Source: a virus
Length of the DNA stretch: 36,125 nt
Direction: 5' to 3' (one strand)
Virus record (IMG/VR): IMGVR_UViG_3300012357_000009
Span: 1-36,125 of that record
A program made the position numbers and the translations under genes. Below are positions 623-24,552 of this stretch, piece by piece (within the stretch, counting starts at the first letter, position 1; every line of letters begins with the position of its first letter). The notes beneath the pieces were generated by a model. That model searched no databases. It had not been told where the DNA came from and saw only the letters and a program-made list of their open reading frames with translations.

Positions 623-1026
623 TGGGCACAAGAGTCATGATCACCATCGAAGGCTTGGACACGGTGCTCAATCGCCTTACCGAGATCGAAGAGAAGGCGG
701 GCGAGAACCTGATCAAGCAGACGGCGAAACTCGCAAAGGATACCGAAGCCGCGTGGAAAGCAGCCACACCGCGCAAGACAGGGCGATTGCAAGAGGGGGA
801 TCGTGCAGAAGTAGGCGGGCTGTCCTTCACGCTGCGCAATAGCGTGTATTACTATCCATTTGTTAGTGAGGGCCACATGACGAGGCGTGGGCATATGACG
901 AGGCGTGGATATGTAGCGGCAAAACACCGGAGACGTGTTGAAGGGAAACAGATCACCGAGAAGGCTATTCAATTCATTGAACAAAATATTCGCGAATATC
1001 TCTCAAAGTTCCTGGATGGTGTGTGA
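619..1026 (+). CDS. HK97 gp10-like tail completion protein
   Basis: The protein is 135 residues from ATG 619; the second ATG at 622 is also possible. It begins MITIEGLDTVLNRLTEIEEKA, the typical opening of HK97 gp10-like proteins: a short strand followed by a long helix, then TPRKTGRLQEGDRAEVGGLSFTLRNSVYYYPFVSEG. The pattern of T-x-R-K-T-G-R-L followed by a Y-x-x-x-V-x-x-G edge is characteristic of the family. These proteins assemble at the head-tail interface or tail terminus of siphoviruses. A short in-tandem duplication encodes GHMTRR twice (residues about 85-96), an unusual local repeat in an otherwise conserved region. The gene is joined by ATGA and GTGA overlaps to its neighbours. Confidence 0.75.
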   Translation: MMGTRVMITIEGLDTVLNRLTEIEEKAGENLIKQTAKLAKDTEAAWKAATPRKTGRLQEGDRAEVGGLSFTLRNSVYYYPFVSEGHMTRRGHMTRRGYVAAKHRRRVEGKQITEKAIQFIEQNIREYLSKFLDGV

Positions 1027-1253
1027 ACATGGTAGCCAACACAAGCATGCAGTATAATGGAGCGAGCACACAGATAGAGCGTATACCGCTCCGATGTCCG
1101 CTCACAGGCAAGATGATGATACGCGTGAGTCGTACTGGTGACTGGCCTGCTGAGTTACGGCAGTGGGTTTGGTGTCGTGGCTGTCATACAGAGCATGAAA
1201 TTGGAAGAGAGTACATTGAGGAAGCGAGGACGCATAATGCTCATGAAAAATGA
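1023..1253 (+). CDS. Small cysteine-rich protein, putative zinc ribbon
   Basis: This is a 76-residue protein. The GTG start at 1023 overlaps the preceding stop (GTGA); ATG 1029 is an alternative. It carries CPLTGKMM in the first half and CRGCHTEH near residues 52-59, giving a possible zinc site formed by three cysteines and a histidine. The spacing resembles small zinc-ribbon proteins seen in phage operons. No known family is recognised. It overlaps the next gene by 17 bases, in the compact style of this operon. The coding call is supported by overlaps and by the absence of an alternative frame in this interval. Confidence 0.5.
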   Translation: MNMVANTSMQYNGASTQIERIPLRCPLTGKMMIRVSRTGDWPAELRQWVWCRGCHTEHEIGREYIEEARTHNAHEK

Positions 1254-1554
1254 ATGGCAGGCGATCATCCAGCAGTGGTTTCAGAGGGATGAGTCACCGT
1301 ACCGAGAGATACGACAGATTGTCACGCAAGACTTGAAGCACTCTCTTGAAGACGTGCAAGAAATAAGATTCAAGAATGAGACGATGCCTGTCTCGTCAAA
1401 TGGTCACTGGGTATGCCGTGAACTGACTGGACGGAAATGGATCACCCTGACCTTTGCTGAAGGAGACCAGTTCACGTTTGTACACGACCGTGAAGGTGTG
1501 CGGATTGCGCCCAATCCCGACGATCCTGTTTTGATCATAGGAAAGCTTTATTAA
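1237..1554 (+). CDS. Hypothetical protein preceding tail-tube gene
   Basis: The frame is open from 1138, but I start it at ATG 1237 (105 residues) because GAGG lies at the right distance upstream; ATG 1243 is an alternative. The protein starts with an amphipathic helix (WQAIIQQWFQ), followed by a charged helix and a beta-rich half containing HWVCRELTGRKWITLTFAEGD and a strand ending at LIIGKLY. I recognise no family. It is the last gene before the structured leader at 1591-1660, so it closes the first translational block. An adaptor or small tail protein is possible, but nothing in the sequence proves it. Confidence 0.5.
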   Translation: MLMKNEWQAIIQQWFQRDESPYREIRQIVTQDLKHSLEDVQEIRFKNETMPVSSNGHWVCRELTGRKWITLTFAEGDQFTFVHDREGVRIAPNPDDPVLIIGKLY

Positions 1555-1590: not shown

Positions 1591-1660
1591 AGAGGCCATA
1601 CAACGAACAACCGTTCGAGGTATGGCCTCTTCTTCTGTGCCATACCTCCTCGACAGGAGG
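1591..1660 (+). promoter_or_regulatory. RNA leader with three competing hairpins ending in the tail-tube Shine-Dalgarno
   Basis: Four segments can pair in two mutually exclusive ways. Segment 1 AGAGGCCATAC (1591-1601) is perfectly complementary to segment 2 GTATGGCCTCT (1620-1630). An overlapping copy of segment 2, GAGGTATGGC (1617-1626), is perfectly complementary to segment 3 GCCATACCTC (1639-1648). The end of segment 3, CCTCCT (1645-1650), is perfectly complementary to segment 4 AGGAGG (1655-1660) across a CGAC loop, and segment 4 is the Shine-Dalgarno of the gene at 1669. Pairing 1:2 frees segment 3 to mask the ribosome site; pairing 2:3 exposes it. There is no uridine run after 1:2, so a translational rather than transcriptional switch is the natural reading. 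Confidence 0.7.
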
Positions 1661-1668
1661 AAAGCAAA

Positions 1669-2052
1669 ATGGCTGCACTGGCTGGCATAGGCGCAAGTTG
1701 CACAGAGGCAAGCACGGCCTTTACAGATGCATCAAAGTGGACATTATCGTTAAAAGGTGCAACAAAGGATGTGACCCCATTTGGTGCTAGTGGCAACTGG
1801 GCTATCAACTTGGCAACCATCAAATCATGGACCGCGAAGATCACCGCGTTTATTGATACCGCTGATACGGCACAGACCAACCTCTACGCCTTATTGAATT
1901 CGTCGCTGTCGATCACGCTCACTATTCAGTCCACGCCTCACGCATTCACAGGAACTGCGATCTTGACCGGGATTGATCCAAATGTCGATGTCCAGAATGC
2001 GCAAACGGTGGATTTCAGTTTCACCGGTACTGGGGCATGCGTGTACTCGTAA
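1669..2052 (+). CDS. Major tail tube protein
   Basis: The protein has 127 residues. The start at ATG 1669 is fixed by AGGAGG ending 8 bases upstream. It is small, beta-rich and lacks cysteine clusters or membrane segments. It has the motif WTLSLKGATKDVTPFGASGNWAINLATIKSWTAKI, then a helix and a strand pair ending in VDFSFTGTG. The core KxxTKDVTPFxAxGxWAxNL recurs in the C-terminal half of the next protein, showing the two are paralogues. Position (after tail completion genes, before the tail chaperones and tape measure) and size fit a siphovirus tail tube subunit. It is likely made in high copy number, which fits the elaborate leader RNA in front of it. A homology search was not possible, so the name rests on context and paralogy. 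Confidence 0.65.
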   Translation: MAALAGIGASCTEASTAFTDASKWTLSLKGATKDVTPFGASGNWAINLATIKSWTAKITAFIDTADTAQTNLYALLNSSLSITLTIQSTPHAFTGTAILTGIDPNVDVQNAQTVDFSFTGTGACVYS

Positions 2053-4180: not shown

Positions 4181-7100
4181 GTGATTGACATACCGGATGC
4201 AGGCGAAATTAAGGCGAAAATAACAATAGAATACGATCCATCAGGGGTTGAGGCGGCAAAGAAAGACCTTGCCAGCCTTGCCGATATCGGAGGTGGTGCC
4301 GGTGACAGCCTGAGCAGTGCGGGTGATGAGCTTGCAAACTTTGGAGACAAGGCTGCGAAGGGGGCGGAGGGCGCTCAGACATTTAACGCTGCTCTCTCTG
4401 AACTCCCAAAGATGGCTGAGAGTGGCACAGAATCCATTGCGAGCATGAATGATGCGCTCTCCGAGAGTCCGAAAGCCTTCGAGGATACAGGTACGGCGGC
4501 TGAAGAGACAGCATCCAAATTACAAAAAGTCGCACAGCCGATGCAAGTACTTACTGAGCACGCTCAAACAATGGCAGACCGGGTAAGTGCAGCCGCAGAT
4601 AATATGTCTGTCTTCCAGAATGCGCTTGATGACCCTTTTCCATTCCAGATGATCAACAGTCATTTGAGCGAAAGCGGACAATCCTGGAATGATTTCACCT
4701 CATCCATCGGCAATGAGAACACAGCCTTGCTTGAGGGTATGGGGCATACGGGGATGAGTGCCGAAGGGTTGCTCGGCCAAATGAGCGGAAGTTTCCAAAG
4801 TGCAGGGAAAAGTATCTCAGATTCTATTAATTGGGACACCGTAGGGCCTCCAACCGATTTCGCTGCCGAGTGGAGCAAAGTCGGTGACACATTGGTTCAA
4901 ACAGGACACGCCGCTGAAGGTGCTGGTAGCGCTATAGGGAAAGCAGGAAAAGCATCGAGTGCATGGTGGTCTGGAGAAGCGGAGTCAGTATTCGGTGGTG
5001 GTGGCGTTATGGGTATCCTCAATGATCTTATGATGCCCATGATGGCTGCACAGATGATCGGTATGGCAGTTGGCGCGGTAGGACAGGGAATTTATAATGC
5101 CGCAGTGATCGCTGAAGGCCCAGGCGCTCATGGGATAGGAACGTTTACCGGGGCCATCGATACCATGACCGCATCGGCTGGTAAAGCAGGGCAGTCATTC
5201 TCAGAAAATTTTGGACAAGGGGTGCTCCCCGCTCTGAATGCGGCAAACAGTGTCGCTGCACAAGGAAAGGCTGGGTTTGATTTCTGGGGGAACTTAGGGG
5301 AAGGACTCGGCATGCAATTAGGGATAGTTACCGATCTTGCACAGGTTGCAGGCGGGGCTATCCTGAGCGCGTTTACTGTTGATGGTGCTGGTCAGGGTAT
5401 GCTTGACGCTGGTTCTCACGGACTCGCCAATTATTGGGCGAATTGGACGGGGCAAGCACAGCCGTATCCAGGTCCCACACCGCCAGATCAGATGCAAATT
5501 GCGTATCAGCAACAAATGGCAAATATGCCACGAACGGTGGAAGGCCAAACCATGACGATGAAGACGCAAGCGGGCACACTGCTTGCGGATTCAGTTACCC
5601 CTGCCTATCTCCAAGCGCAGGATGAGTTATCCGCCTCGCAAGCGATTTATCAGCGCGTACAGGCATCCTACAATGCTTCACACCCTATTAACCAGCAACG
5701 CATGCTACAAGAGGCTCAATACCAGGAATATGCAGCACAACAGAACGCTCTCTATCAAAATTACACGGGACAAGGGCCAGGCGCAGGCGCTGCGGGACAA
5801 TCCTCTCCACTGGACTTTTTGACGGGCATGGGGCCAGCCTCAGTAGCAGGGTTGCAGGGGCAAGGTGGTCAAACGTATGGGGACATGATTGGGCAAGGGA
5901 TAAAGGACTTTTTCGGCGGCACTGGCTTTGGTGGAGAAGTCATGCAGTTTCTTACTGGTGCAGGACCTGCAAATACAGCAGGTGGGCAAACGTATGGTCA
6001 GGCTATTGGTGGTGGCATTGGTAGCTTTTTCGGCGGCATGGGTGCAGGCATCGGAGGTTTCTTTGGTGGGCTAGGGCAGGATTTCAATAATCTCATTGGT
6101 GCTGGCGGCGCTACTCCACCTACCACGTCTATGGGTTGTTTCCCATCTGGCACGCTCGTACTGATGGCTGATAACAGCGAACGAGCCATTGAGTCACTTG
6201 AGATCGGGGACCGGGTGAAATCTCATGACGGACCCACGCCTGTTCTTGCCCTGCTCAAACCACCGCCACGGATCGTCTATGAGTTGACCTTCGATGATGG
6301 CAATAGATTACTACTGACCGCTTCGCATCCGATAGCCACTGAGCGAGGATGGAAGTCACTTTCGCCCAGACTGAGTAGGAAGGAGAATCCTGCTCTCGAA
6401 GTCGCAACGCTTCAAGTAGGCGATAGTGTCCACACCTCTGATGGTACCGCGTGCAAACTCTTGGACATAAAGGCACGTAGCGTTGCACAAGTGTATAACA
6501 TCACTGTTGCGGAACCTCATACCTTTTACGCAAACAAGATCCTTGTGCACAACAAAATGGGCGCAATGGCAAGCGACGGCACAGGGAGCGAGAACGTCAG
6601 TCTTTCGCATACCTTCACCGCTACCGTCAATTGGGCTGCAACCGGACTAGAGAAACAGTTTACCGCCGCGGCACAGTGGGCGGAGCAAAATCTTGTTCAT
6701 ACCGCAGTAGCAGCGGCTCAATGGGCGGAACAAAATCTTACTCATATGGCGGTTGCCGCTGCTCAGTGGGCAGAGCAGAACCTTACCCACTCAGCTACGG
6801 CGGCCGCTGAGTGGGCAGAGCAGAACCTTATCCACCCGGCAATAGCAGCGGTACAGTGGGCAGAGCAAGGGCTTGAGCATGATGCGGTAGCGGTTGCTAA
6901 CTGGGCAGAGCAAGGATTAGAGCACTTGTTCACCGGAAAGGCCAGTTGGATTGGTCAAGACCTCAACCATATGTTTACAGCGGTGGCCCAGTGGACTGCA
7001 CAAAATCTGACCCCCTCATTCACGGTGAATCCAAGCGTCACCATGCTTGCGGAAGGCACGTCCAACTTCCCAGGTGGCCCCGCAATCGTCGGAGAGGCAG

Positions 7101-7411
7101 GAACAGAGGTTGTATCACATAACGGGCAATACTCGCTTTTCGATCAAGGGGCAGCGCTGGTCAATCTTCCCTCTGGAGCGAATGTGTATCCGATGCAAGA
7201 TCTGAGCTATTCTCCAACCGCGCCGGTACAGTTTGCCGAAGGAACAGGCGGCCCTGTCATCCCCGTCTCACTTGGTATGAGCGGCAGGGGTGCGAGTATG
7301 CCAGAGTCCGTCAATGTCATTGTCAATCTGGACAGTCAGACATTCCTCTCCGCAATGGGCGCACCATTCGCGCAAACTATACGGGTAGGTATGGGCATGA
7401 GAAGCTTTTAG
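4181..7411 (+). CDS. Tail tape measure protein with internal Hint domain
   Basis: The protein has 1076 residues counted from GTG 4181. The N-terminus (KAKITIEYDPSGVEAAKKDL) and following helical region are typical of tape measure proteins. A hydrophobic stretch, residues about 273-312 (MGILNDLMMPMMAAQMIGMA and onward), could enter the host membrane. Gly-rich repeats near residues 545-640 contain two copies of a GQTYG...FFGG unit. Residues 653-791 form a Hint (intein-like) domain, and residues 808-942 are nine 15-residue repeats. The C-terminus has PAIVGEAGTEVV and a GANVYP-like ending usual in tape measure proteins. The start is uncertain: the near-perfect ribosome site AAAGGAGGTGAT (4174-4185) overlaps GTG 4181 and would instead fit an ATA codon at 4190. 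Tail length would scale with this protein. Confidence 0.85.
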   Translation: MIDIPDAGEIKAKITIEYDPSGVEAAKKDLASLADIGGGAGDSLSSAGDELANFGDKAAKGAEGAQTFNAALSELPKMAESGTESIASMNDALSESPKAFEDTGTAAEETASKLQKVAQPMQVLTEHAQTMADRVSAAADNMSVFQNALDDPFPFQMINSHLSESGQSWNDFTSSIGNENTALLEGMGHTGMSAEGLLGQMSGSFQSAGKSISDSINWDTVGPPTDFAAEWSKVGDTLVQTGHAAEGAGSAIGKAGKASSAWWSGEAESVFGGGGVMGILNDLMMPMMAAQMIGMAVGAVGQGIYNAAVIAEGPGAHGIGTFTGAIDTMTASAGKAGQSFSENFGQGVLPALNAANSVAAQGKAGFDFWGNLGEGLGMQLGIVTDLAQVAGGAILSAFTVDGAGQGMLDAGSHGLANYWANWTGQAQPYPGPTPPDQMQIAYQQQMANMPRTVEGQTMTMKTQAGTLLADSVTPAYLQAQDELSASQAIYQRVQASYNASHPINQQRMLQEAQYQEYAAQQNALYQNYTGQGPGAGAAGQSSPLDFLTGMGPASVAGLQGQGGQTYGDMIGQGIKDFFGGTGFGGEVMQFLTGAGPANTAGGQTYGQAIGGGIGSFFGGMGAGIGGFFGGLGQDFNNLIGAGGATPPTTSMGCFPSGTLVLMADNSERAIESLEIGDRVKSHDGPTPVLALLKPPPRIVYELTFDDGNRLLLTASHPIATERGWKSLSPRLSRKENPALEVATLQVGDSVHTSDGTACKLLDIKARSVAQVYNITVAEPHTFYANKILVHNKMGAMASDGTGSENVSLSHTFTATVNWAATGLEKQFTAAAQWAEQNLVHTAVAAAQWAEQNLTHMAVAAAQWAEQNLTHSATAAAEWAEQNLIHPAIAAVQWAEQGLEHDAVAVANWAEQGLEHLFTGKASWIGQDLNHMFTAVAQWTAQNLTPSFTVNPSVTMLAEGTSNFPGGPAIVGEAGTEVVSHNGQYSLFDQGAALVNLPSGANVYPMQDLSYSPTAPVQFAEGTGGPVIPVSLGMSGRGASMPESVNVIVNLDSQTFLSAMGAPFAQTIRVGMGMRSF
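6137..6553 (+). other. Hint / bacterial intein-like domain inside the tape measure
   Basis: Residues 653-791 of the tape measure open with Cys653 in CFPSGTLVLMADNSERAIES followed by LEIGDRV, the N-terminal splicing motif (block A). The T-x-x-H motif of block B is TASHPIA, with Thr713 and His716. Block F is VYNITVAEPHTFYANK and block G ends ILVHN with His790 and Asn791. There is no homing endonuclease insertion (139 residues in all). The residue after Asn791 is Lys792, not Cys, Ser or Thr, so the standard second transesterification needed for splicing lacks its nucleophile. This is typical of bacterial intein-like domains that cleave rather than splice. Confidence 0.85.
6602..7006 (+). repeat. 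Nine tandem 45-bp (15-residue) repeats in tape measure
   Basis: The repeat register is L-x-H-x-x-x-A-x-x-x-W-x-x-Q-x, for example LTHMAVAAAQWAEQN, LVHTAVAAAQWAEQN and LEHDAVAVANWAEQG. Nine units run from 6602 to 7006 and a decayed tenth follows. The invariant Trp and the alternating hydrophobic residues suggest a repeated strand-turn or amphipathic helix. DNA copies are similar but not identical, so they are not a recent slippage product. Each unit could add a fixed length to the tail ruler. Confidence 0.85.
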
Positions 7412-7992: not shown

Positions 7993-8385
7993 ACGCAAGA
8001 AGATATCTATACTCTAGGATTCAACGCTGGGCAACCATCGGCACAAAAGGATGCGTATACGTGGTGTGCGATCTATAATGACGACCGCACAGTCATCTAT
8101 GAGAACGATGAAAATAGCTTTGCCGATGTTCATCCGTCACGTGTCCAGACGCTTCTGCTCTTGCCCATACCGGGTACAGAGGGAGAAGCACAGCGCATGG
8201 ATATTCCGTCTGACGCTACTCCTGTATTCTTCAGGCGGCGAAGTATGACGCTCAATCTCGAAACTTCCGAGGAAACACACAAGACAGCCCATTGCATCGG
8301 GTGGAAACGTGGTGATGAGGCCATCTATCTCTTCGTGCTCTCAGATGGCTCAACGCTCTTAACAGACAATTTACAGGCAATTTAG
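7993..8385 (+). CDS. Hypothetical tail protein, apparently with a non-standard start (ACG)
   Basis: The frame is open from 7975 to TAG 8383-8385 and reads as coding throughout (TLGFNAGQPSAQKDAYTWCA and onward), but it contains no ATG, GTG or TTG before TTG 8161. A ribosome site AAGGA (7979-7983) points at ACG 7993, nine bases on, which gives about 130 residues. The protein contains TWCAIYNDDRTVIYENDEN, VQTLLLLPIPGTEGE, MDIPSDATPVFFRRR and a C-terminal strand pair with YLFVLSDGSTLLTDNLQAI. It shares this order of elements with the next gene (8401-8829), so the two are probably tandem paralogues. Function is unknown; a tail-associated role is inferred from position. Confidence 0.5.
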   Translation, partial: TQEDIYTLGFNAGQPSAQKDAYTWCAIYNDDRTVIYENDENSFADVHPSRVQTLLLLPIPGTEGEAQRMDIPSDATPVFFRRRSMTLNLETSEETHKTAHCIGWKRGDEAIYLFVLSDGSTLLTDNLQAI

Positions 8386-20280: not shown

Positions 20281-20354
20281 AGCGGGTTGGAGAAGAGGTC
20301 TATCTCGCTAGTCTCATAAATTAGAGAACGCAAGTTCAAATCTTGCACCCGCTC
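20281..20354 (+). tRNA. tRNA with anticodon CAU (Met or modified Ile)
   Basis: All arms fold: acceptor AGCGGGT with ACCCGCT (7 bp), D-stem GAGA/TCTC with a GG-containing loop, anticodon stem CTAGT/ATTAG with loop CTCATAA, five-base variable loop AGAAC, and T-stem GCAAG/CTTGC with loop TTCAAAT. The G15-C48 tertiary pair is possible. The anticodon is CAU, so it is elongator Met, initiator Met or Ile2 after lysidine modification. Position 1-72 is an A-U pair, unlike the usual bacterial initiator. The discriminator base is C, which is unusual for these classes, and no CCA is encoded. It is adjacent to the late terminator. Confidence 0.9.
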
Positions 20355-22813: not shown

Positions 22814-23149
22814 CCCGTATTCCCACCAATCTCACCAGGTCGCGCGCATCTCGACTGACAAGGGCAACAAGTAGGCGAGTTGGGGGCATTGACGGGTGCG
22901 ATAGACTGGGGATGCCTAAGTTTGAATATACATCGATACCTACCGGTCCTCGCAGCGGCATACTGTGAGGCTTTTTCTTGTGCTATACTGACAGTACGAG
23001 AATGCTTCTATTCCATACCCTATCTTTGCTCTCTGGGCCTCGACGCTGAGGCCCATCTCCCGCTATACCGCATACTCACGATCTGCTATGATGGCTGAGC
23101 AGGGCTGTGCATCTTCCAGAGCTTTACCCCATGCACGTCCCTGCTATGC
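22814..23149 (+). promoter_or_regulatory. Gene-free stretch with two extended -10 elements and a hairpin
   Basis: No gene is seen. TGCTATACT (-10 at 22984-22989) is followed at 23035-23054 by a hairpin GGGCCTC/GAGGCCC. A second TGCTATGAT (-10 at 23087-23092) follows. No clear uridine tract is visible. Confidence 0.4.
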
Positions 23150-23229
23150 TATACTAGGATTGAATACAAAGACCTTTTCTACAAGAACGCCACATGGGCA
23201 GGAGCGACGTGGTAGCTCCTGCCTTTTTG
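23150..23229 (+). ncRNA. Candidate short RNA, promoter to terminator
   Basis: TATGCTATACT (-10 at 23150-23155) would start transcription near 23162. An intrinsic terminator follows: GGCAGGAGC (23197-23205) pairs with GCTCCTGCC (23215-23223) across a nine-base loop, then TTTTTG. The product would be about 65 nt. It lies tail to tail with the minus-strand gene 23230-23451. The same hairpin can also end that gene. A start upstream makes this the most convincing small RNA of the group. Confidence 0.55.
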
Positions 23230-24185: not shown

Positions 24186-24552
24186 TGTCAGGGAGGCGCA
24201 TAAAGTTGCCCGAAGGCAGAGCGTTTTTGATGGGAACGCTCTAAACCCCACTACTCAGCGTTGCTGCTTTGTAGGTAAAGTGGGCCTCGACAAGGTTAGC
24301 GAGCGGTACTTTCTCCTGAGCACTGACTTAACCCTCGTACATCTGTTTAACTCAGGAGTTCTAGGGCTTCAGGCTGGCCGCGCACCCAAAGGTAGGAACT
24401 CAAACGCTTCTCGCTAACGTAGTTTGAACTTGGCTGATTGTATCCAGGCAATACGTTCAAACTGAGTCTGGTCAGGTGAGCTTGTAACAGCCTGAGCCAA
24501 AGCGCTCAACAGTTTGCAAGCCCCTGGTTTTTAAACCAGAGGGTCCCTGACG
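24186..24552 (-). ncRNA. Candidate ~366-nt structured RNA with closing helix
   Basis: The whole stretch is closed by GTCAGGGA (24187-24194) with TCCCTGAC (24544-24551), 8 bp. Inside are further perfect stems: 24218-24225 with 24235-24242 (8 bp), 24247-24252 with 24279-24284, a long-range 9-bp stem 24295-24303 with 24410-24418, nested 24313-24320 with 24351-24358 (8 bp), and 24421-24429 with 24455-24463 (9 bp). Pairs TTGGCT (24430-24435) with AGCCAA (24495-24500), TCAGG with CCTGA (24472-24476, 24491-24495), and GCTTG with CAAGC (24480-24484, 24517-24521) cross one another, hinting at pseudoknots. A C(UUCG)G tetraloop appears only on the minus strand (24207-24218), and flanking genes also run minus, so I assign that strand. 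No convincing protein frame exists. Confidence 0.65.

Follow-up and report, generated by a model that had tools for sequence, protein, structure and literature searches.

Sequence comparison indicates that positions 1591 to 1668 of a soil phage genome are the core of a conserved leader of about 90 nt that precedes a major virion gene. The window, i.e. the whole stretch of DNA analysed, is IMG/VR virus record IMGVR_UViG_3300012357_000009 and is 36,125 nt in length. The leader can form two hairpins, termed 1:2 and 2:3, which are mutually exclusive as both use segment 2, and the competition between them in front of the tail gene, which had been described in an earlier note on this DNA, was upheld in that both hairpins are well beyond chance and are kept in diverged relatives. 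Judged by sequence, the leader and a small zinc-ribbon gene that travels with it look like a new phage gene-control module.

Architecture and conservation of the leader

The leader runs in the order 5' block (ACCGGAGCC-N-GAG), hairpin 1:2, alternative hairpin 2:3 and a variable Shine-Dalgarno/start region, all on the + strand. The conserved block, segment 0 (ACCGGAGCCC, 1580-1589), is near-invariant in alignment A7 and forms with segment 1 the sequence GAGCC-N-GAG, a candidate protein-binding site. Segment 1 (AGAGGCCATAC, 1591-1601) is the 5' arm of the terminator-shaped hairpin 1:2, as shown by covariation over 13 sequences, and the loop of that hairpin holds in the fold of the window an inner hairpin (CGAAC/GTTCG, 1604-1617); most other members also carry a stem in this loop, differing in sequence, and the loop sequence is not conserved. 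Segment 2 (1617-1630), the arm common to both hairpins, was recognised from an inverted-repeat scan, covariation, the consensus fold and shuffles, and serves as the 3' arm of 1:2 (GTATGGCCTCT, 1620-1630; 11 bp) or as the 5' arm of 2:3 (GAGGTATGGC, 1617-1626; 10 bp). A T-rich tract 3' of 1:2 (1630-1638), seen in the sequence tails, is followed by segment 3 (GCCATACCTC, 1639-1648), identified as the partner of segment 2 by shuffled linkers and the A7 consensus fold, and the GCCAT of segment 3 also complements ATGGC, i.e. the start codon plus codon 2. The Shine-Dalgarno hairpin 3:4 (CCTCCT-CGAC-AGGAGG, 1645-1660), present in the minimum-free-energy (MFE) fold of the window, pairs CCTCCT (1645-1650) with AGGAGG (1655-1660) over 6 bp, and the Shine-Dalgarno lies 8 nt before the ATG at 1669. 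The three pairings of 11, 10 and 6 bp reported earlier are therefore all present where they had been placed. The inverted-repeat scan of the window recovered both 1591-1630 and 1617-1648, and folding of 1560-1700, suggested in the earlier note as a check, gave an energy of -53.3 kcal/mol, far beyond the shuffled mean of -35.8 (z -4.3; 0/200 shuffles). No Rfam family matched 1591-1668 at the gathering threshold.

The gene that follows (1669..2052, +, 127 aa) encodes a major tail (tail-tube) protein, as had been proposed, with matches to phrog_1407 (E 6.9e-8) and phrog_4574 (E 2.2e-5). On its 3' side there are a larger ORF repeating a short tail-protein-like motif, a tail assembly chaperone and a tape-measure-like ORF, and the leader is preceded by a neck protein gene (phrog_5) and two small genes. 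Only viral contigs contained relatives of the tail gene; GenBank phages yielded no DNA or protein relative and two scans of bacterial genomes yielded none. The tape-measure-like ORF (4181-7411, +) contains a Hint/intein-like domain at about residues 648-791 (PF01079 E 1e-8), for which ordinary splicing is doubtful because the residue following the terminal HN is K. Elsewhere in the window there are a tRNA gene (20281-20354, +) and a HEARO RNA (RF02033, 125 bits; 24275-24551, -); no Pfam match was obtained for the 120-205 aa ORFs tested next to the latter, so that no recognisable HEARO-associated nuclease was found among them.

The element was found in 13 distinct phage contigs, in 12 of which it precedes the major tail protein gene and in one (L313) a decoration-like and major capsid gene. 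The tail-gene leader is homologous in contigs L003, L004, L005, L012, L019 (partial), L022, L032, L033, L035, L036 and L312, with an invariant or nearly invariant 5' block (GGAG..C), CCATA of segment 1, GG..TGG of segment 2, the T-run and TGCC of segment 3. Covariance model R1 found the full element once per record examined. For most pairs of tail genes the identity at fourfold-degenerate sites is close to that expected by chance (about 0.2-0.4), and since these sites are near saturation the conservation of the leader points to selection or to transfer as a unit.

Across the 13 sequences 93% of the cells of hairpin 1:2 are paired and four pairs are altered on both sides, e.g. GAGGCC/GGCCTC in the window against AGAGCC/GGCTCT in L033 and GAGACC/GGTCTC in L312. 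On four of five measures the covariation was reached in 2-10 of 500 shuffles, and pairing is thus far beyond chance and kept via compensatory changes. The stem is followed by TTTTT or longer in most relatives, by TTTTCTCTT in L004 and by an interrupted TTCTTCTGT in the window. On these sequence grounds, the U-run in relatives and the compensatory pairing, 1:2 is an intrinsic-terminator-shaped hairpin, whose efficiency in the window is uncertain, and the primary control could therefore be exerted on transcription rather than translation.

In these phages terminator-shaped hairpins often stand directly before genes. A terminator-like hairpin commonly lies within about 120 nt downstream of a promoter-like site (TGNTATAMT; 23/71 against 8% of random positions), and the layout of promoter, leader, terminator and gene occurs phage-wide (window 23147-23222, +, and L351-L370). 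The record of L022 contains a short relative of the element (L363:6798-6860), comprising the block and terminator without segment 3, before another gene, which by eye is the orthologue of a window ORF near 8161-8385 that itself has no such element. A tandem GAGCC(N)GAGCC recurs ahead of other terminators, and a scan for the exact 5' block gave matches that were mostly chance, with one true. Terminator arms in these phages often contain GAGCC as well, and the sequence hence need not be a protein site.

Hairpin 2:3 is retained in 12 of the 13 members (p <= 0.018 for each against shuffled linkers; 0/1000 in the window) and was picked unsupervised as the consensus fold of A7. A double compensatory change is seen in L022, which has GGGGTGGC and GCCACCCC as segments 2 and 3 and an unchanged segment 1; formal covariation of 2:3 is modest (36/500) and comes largely from one sequence. 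Conservation of the pairs in relatives, another check put forward in the earlier note, thus came out positive for both hairpins. Folding gives 1:2 a probability near 1 in the window at every transcript length examined, so that at equilibrium 2:3 would need a trans-acting factor or the loss of segment 1. When folding was followed over transcript lengths 2:3 was dominant only in L022 and a transient competitor in L032 and L036. In most members 2:3 is formed by transcripts that lack segment 1, and in several the start codon is then more accessible. The comparison with a classic attenuator did not survive, as segment 3 (1639-1648) lies downstream of the U-rich tract, so that 2:3 cannot be a classical antiterminator, and by inspection there is no antiterminator upstream.

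Access to the ribosome-binding site

The third helix fared differently from the other two. Pairing of 3:4 is no better than expected from base composition (duplex p 0.28, accessibility p 0.17), and in L313, L019 and L035 it is weak or lacking; in L313 another hairpin sits between segment 3 and the Shine-Dalgarno. Folding indicates that 2:3 can coexist with a shortened Shine-Dalgarno hairpin (UCCUC/GAGGA), and when 1:2 was forbidden 2:3 formed, yet most members retained the Shine-Dalgarno hairpin. The unpaired probability of the Shine-Dalgarno then moved from 0.05 to 0.34 in the window and from 0.01 to 0.03 in L005. A switch of the Shine-Dalgarno between paired and free was accordingly not seen in folding, the hairpin persisting without 1:2, and a clean hidden/exposed logic is unsupported. 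The earlier note had envisaged two exclusive sets of helices: the exclusion of 2:3 by 1:2 holds, the exclusion of the Shine-Dalgarno hairpin by 2:3 does not, and the suggested hiding and exposure of the ribosome site is borne out only in part.

Modelled folds suggest instead that 2:3 would chiefly free the start codon region from segment 3 (GCCAT:ATGGC), a pairing that appears in several MFE folds of relatives. Covering the start codon was rejected as the sole reason for keeping segment 3, GCCAT being retained in L035, L036 and L019 despite GTGAC/TTGAC starts. Leader-peptide or ribosome-driven attenuation was likewise rejected: the upstream gene ends at 1554, segment 0 in the window has no start codon at Shine-Dalgarno spacing, and ATG/GTG within segment 2 is in no conserved frame. 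As a further observation, in the element-less contigs L007, L008, L014, L026 and L029 the MFE folds place other, unrelated hairpins near the Shine-Dalgarno of the tail gene.

A zinc-ribbon gene that travels with the leader

A zinc-ribbon-like gene (1023..1253, +; 76 aa, GTG start) lies upstream of the leader in the window and encodes a weakly Com-like protein that is a candidate trans-acting RNA-binding regulator. Between it and the element, and last before the leader, is a small gene with no assigned function (1237..1554, +), to which an ORF in L019 is similar by eye. Homologues of the zinc-ribbon gene, with the motif C..T.KLL.R...WC.GC..EH, lie just 5' of the element in L004, L005, L012, L032, L033, L035, L312 and L313, and in most phages with the element the gene is one or two genes upstream of it. 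Among the contigs with the element 11 extend over the region, and 9 of these, the window and the capsid copy included, also have the gene, which occurs in one of seven contigs without the element, giving a nominal Fisher p of 0.013 (9,2;1,6) from counts made by hand and ignoring kinship, a value which overstates independence because the contigs are related. The tail gene has no zinc-ribbon gene next to it in L007, the L008 group, L014, the L026 group, L029 and L304, all of which lack the element, and the short, fragmentary records of L003 and L019, which have an altered element, contain none. In L031 the gene is present with a different leader, and a homing-endonuclease-like ORF (NUMOD3/DUF559; L031:3024-3845) is inserted between the two. 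The record of L007 has a distant zinc-ribbon paralogue elsewhere (L334), followed by a GAGCC(N3)GAGCC terminator.

A search with the zinc-ribbon protein alone retrieved L313, otherwise a different phage, in which gene and element stand before a decoration-like protein (PF09956 E 0.0017, below the cut-off) and the major head protein (phrog_3990 E 3.8e-41). Since both precede decoration/capsid genes in this otherwise different phage, the two behave as a cassette. The earlier note had offered transcription rate, a metabolite or a phage protein as the signal; the last is the only one with evidence, namely the co-travelling gene, and the role of its product is put forward here as a possible one. 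A metabolite riboswitch of a known class was not borne out, there being no known aptamer domain and no Rfam match at the gathering threshold.

The zinc-ribbon protein has no Pfam, PHROGs or NCBIfam match above the cut-off, no relatives in GenBank phages (E 0.5 or worse in a second search) or in plasmids, and its AlphaFold model (pLDDT 79.8) gave no informative match by Foldseek or VIA-align. Alignment of its profile by hhalign with six Com proteins of the Mu Com family gave E 3.7e-4 (prob 36.6), and the Com profile score of 24.1 was reached in none of 150 shuffles in which the cysteines were kept (maximum 18.9), so that it appears weakly to resemble Mu Com beyond the cysteines. In the first Com knuckle another residue stands in place of the second Cys, so that one of the four zinc cysteines is lost, and PF10122 gave no match at E <= 1; the protein is thus best called Com-like, not a Com. 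The motif bound by Mu Com is CC(N)2-3GAG, and Mu Com has been proposed to melt a stem containing the mom start codon (PMC6483171). By inspection 11 of the 13 leaders contain CC(N)2-4GAG, with a spacing of 2-3 in seven, the window among them, and the motif overlaps the 5' arm of 1:2. The two systems are alike in having a small zinc-ribbon gene immediately before the leader under control, hairpins at or near the beginning of the following gene and a leader motif of the CC(N)2-3GAG type (PMC6483171). They differ in that the target here is a major virion gene, whereas that in Mu is concerned with DNA modification, in the addition of a terminator-shaped hairpin with a U-run and of the alternative hairpin 2:3, and in a protein that has neither one of the four Com cysteines nor a PF10122 match.

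Proposed mechanism, alternatives and significance

The explanation that we favour, tentatively and with slightly less than even confidence, is a leader of the terminator-attenuator type in which a Com-like protein on the 5' arm would permit both polymerase passage and the formation of 2:3. By default 1:2 would form and terminate part of transcription, and in the RNA that is nevertheless read through segment 3 would remain unpaired and able to mask the start codon. In the manner of Mu Com, the zinc-ribbon protein would bind the GAGCC-N-GAGCC block overlapping the 5' arm of 1:2 and block the terminator hairpin, the polymerase would read through, and segment 2, thus freed, would pair with segment 3 and unmask the start region. 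The outcome would be a late burst of tail-tube protein (capsid protein in L313) after the small regulator had accumulated. The interrupted U-run of the window, the use of GAGCC as a terminator arm and the weak similarity to Com all count against the full mechanism, as do the records of L003 and L019, in which the element occurs but not the gene, and the dependence of 2:3 covariation largely on a single sequence. A broader proposal, held with less confidence, is that the Com-like protein and its own leader RNA, with terminator and alternative hairpin, may constitute a mobile phage control cassette placed before major virion genes that need a late burst, the tail tube in the window and decoration/capsid in L313, and would couple antitermination to the opening of the ribosome site.

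A plain intrinsic terminator between two transcription units, accompanied by a copy of its arm that is conserved without having a function, is an unlikely alternative: such hairpins are common before genes here and follow promoter-like sites at the raised frequency given above, but despite saturated divergence all but one of the 13 members retain the 2:3 partner, and in L022 segments 2 and 3 change in concert. Rather less likely is a self-contained translational switch driven by transcription speed or a metabolite, with 1:2 and 3:4 hiding the ribosome site and 2:3 exposing it. All three helices do exist in the window, and segment 3 also covers the start codon in several relatives, but 3:4 does not exceed composition, is weak or absent in three members (L313, L019 and L035) and can coexist with 2:3, and 1:2 has a probability of about 1 in the window, where 1591-1668 lacks an Rfam match.

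The behaviour of RNAs without segment 1, which fold to 2:3 in most members and in several have a more accessible start codon, would be expected if transcripts starting or cut between segments 1 and 2 formed 2:3 near their 5' end and were translated, long read-through RNAs being blocked. There is a precedent in T4 genes e, soc, 49 and I-TevI, and the late promoters of gene e leave out the 5' strand of its hairpin (PMC3014915); this arrangement is nonetheless improbable here, as a search of the window revealed no promoter-like site within the element, the 1:2 loop sequence is not conserved, and the conserved 5' block and zinc-ribbon gene would be left unexplained. Least probable is a DNA operator with three GCCATAC/GTATGGC half-sites for a phage repressor and incidental RNA hairpins. 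Most members do carry three copies of the heptamer or a close variant, with orientation alternating, but segments 2 and 3 change jointly in L022 while 1 stays, and segments 1 and 2 jointly in L312 while 3 stays, so that changes follow pairs rather than sites, and the U-run fits RNA.

Among known systems T-phi of T7 is an intrinsic terminator between the capsid and tail genes, within the virion-gene region, and is expected to lower downstream transcription, as hairpin 1:2 may do here; we know of no alternative hairpin or dedicated zinc-ribbon gene associated with it. Transcription attenuators under protein control, for which L10(L12)4 at B. subtilis rplJL is an example (PMC4538822), resemble the present leader in the competition of a leader terminator, putative here and probably controlled by protein, with another pairing. 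They differ from it in that the competing segment here lies 3' of the U-run, so that it cannot serve as a classical antiterminator, and in that the gene controlled here is a phage structural one. The T4 gene e/soc/I-TevI group shares an RNA structure near a phage gene start that may delay translation (PMC3014915); promoters omitting the 5' strand of the hairpin, as in gene e, were not found here.

The timing and dosage of structural genes are understood mainly in a few model phages, and a conserved leader RNA with a dedicated small RNA-binding protein would offer a compact and directly testable mechanism. If the favoured explanation is true, Com-like control would extend beyond the DNA-modification gene of Mu to virion structural genes, and the leader with its zinc-ribbon gene would provide a marker for locating such modules in metagenomic phages.
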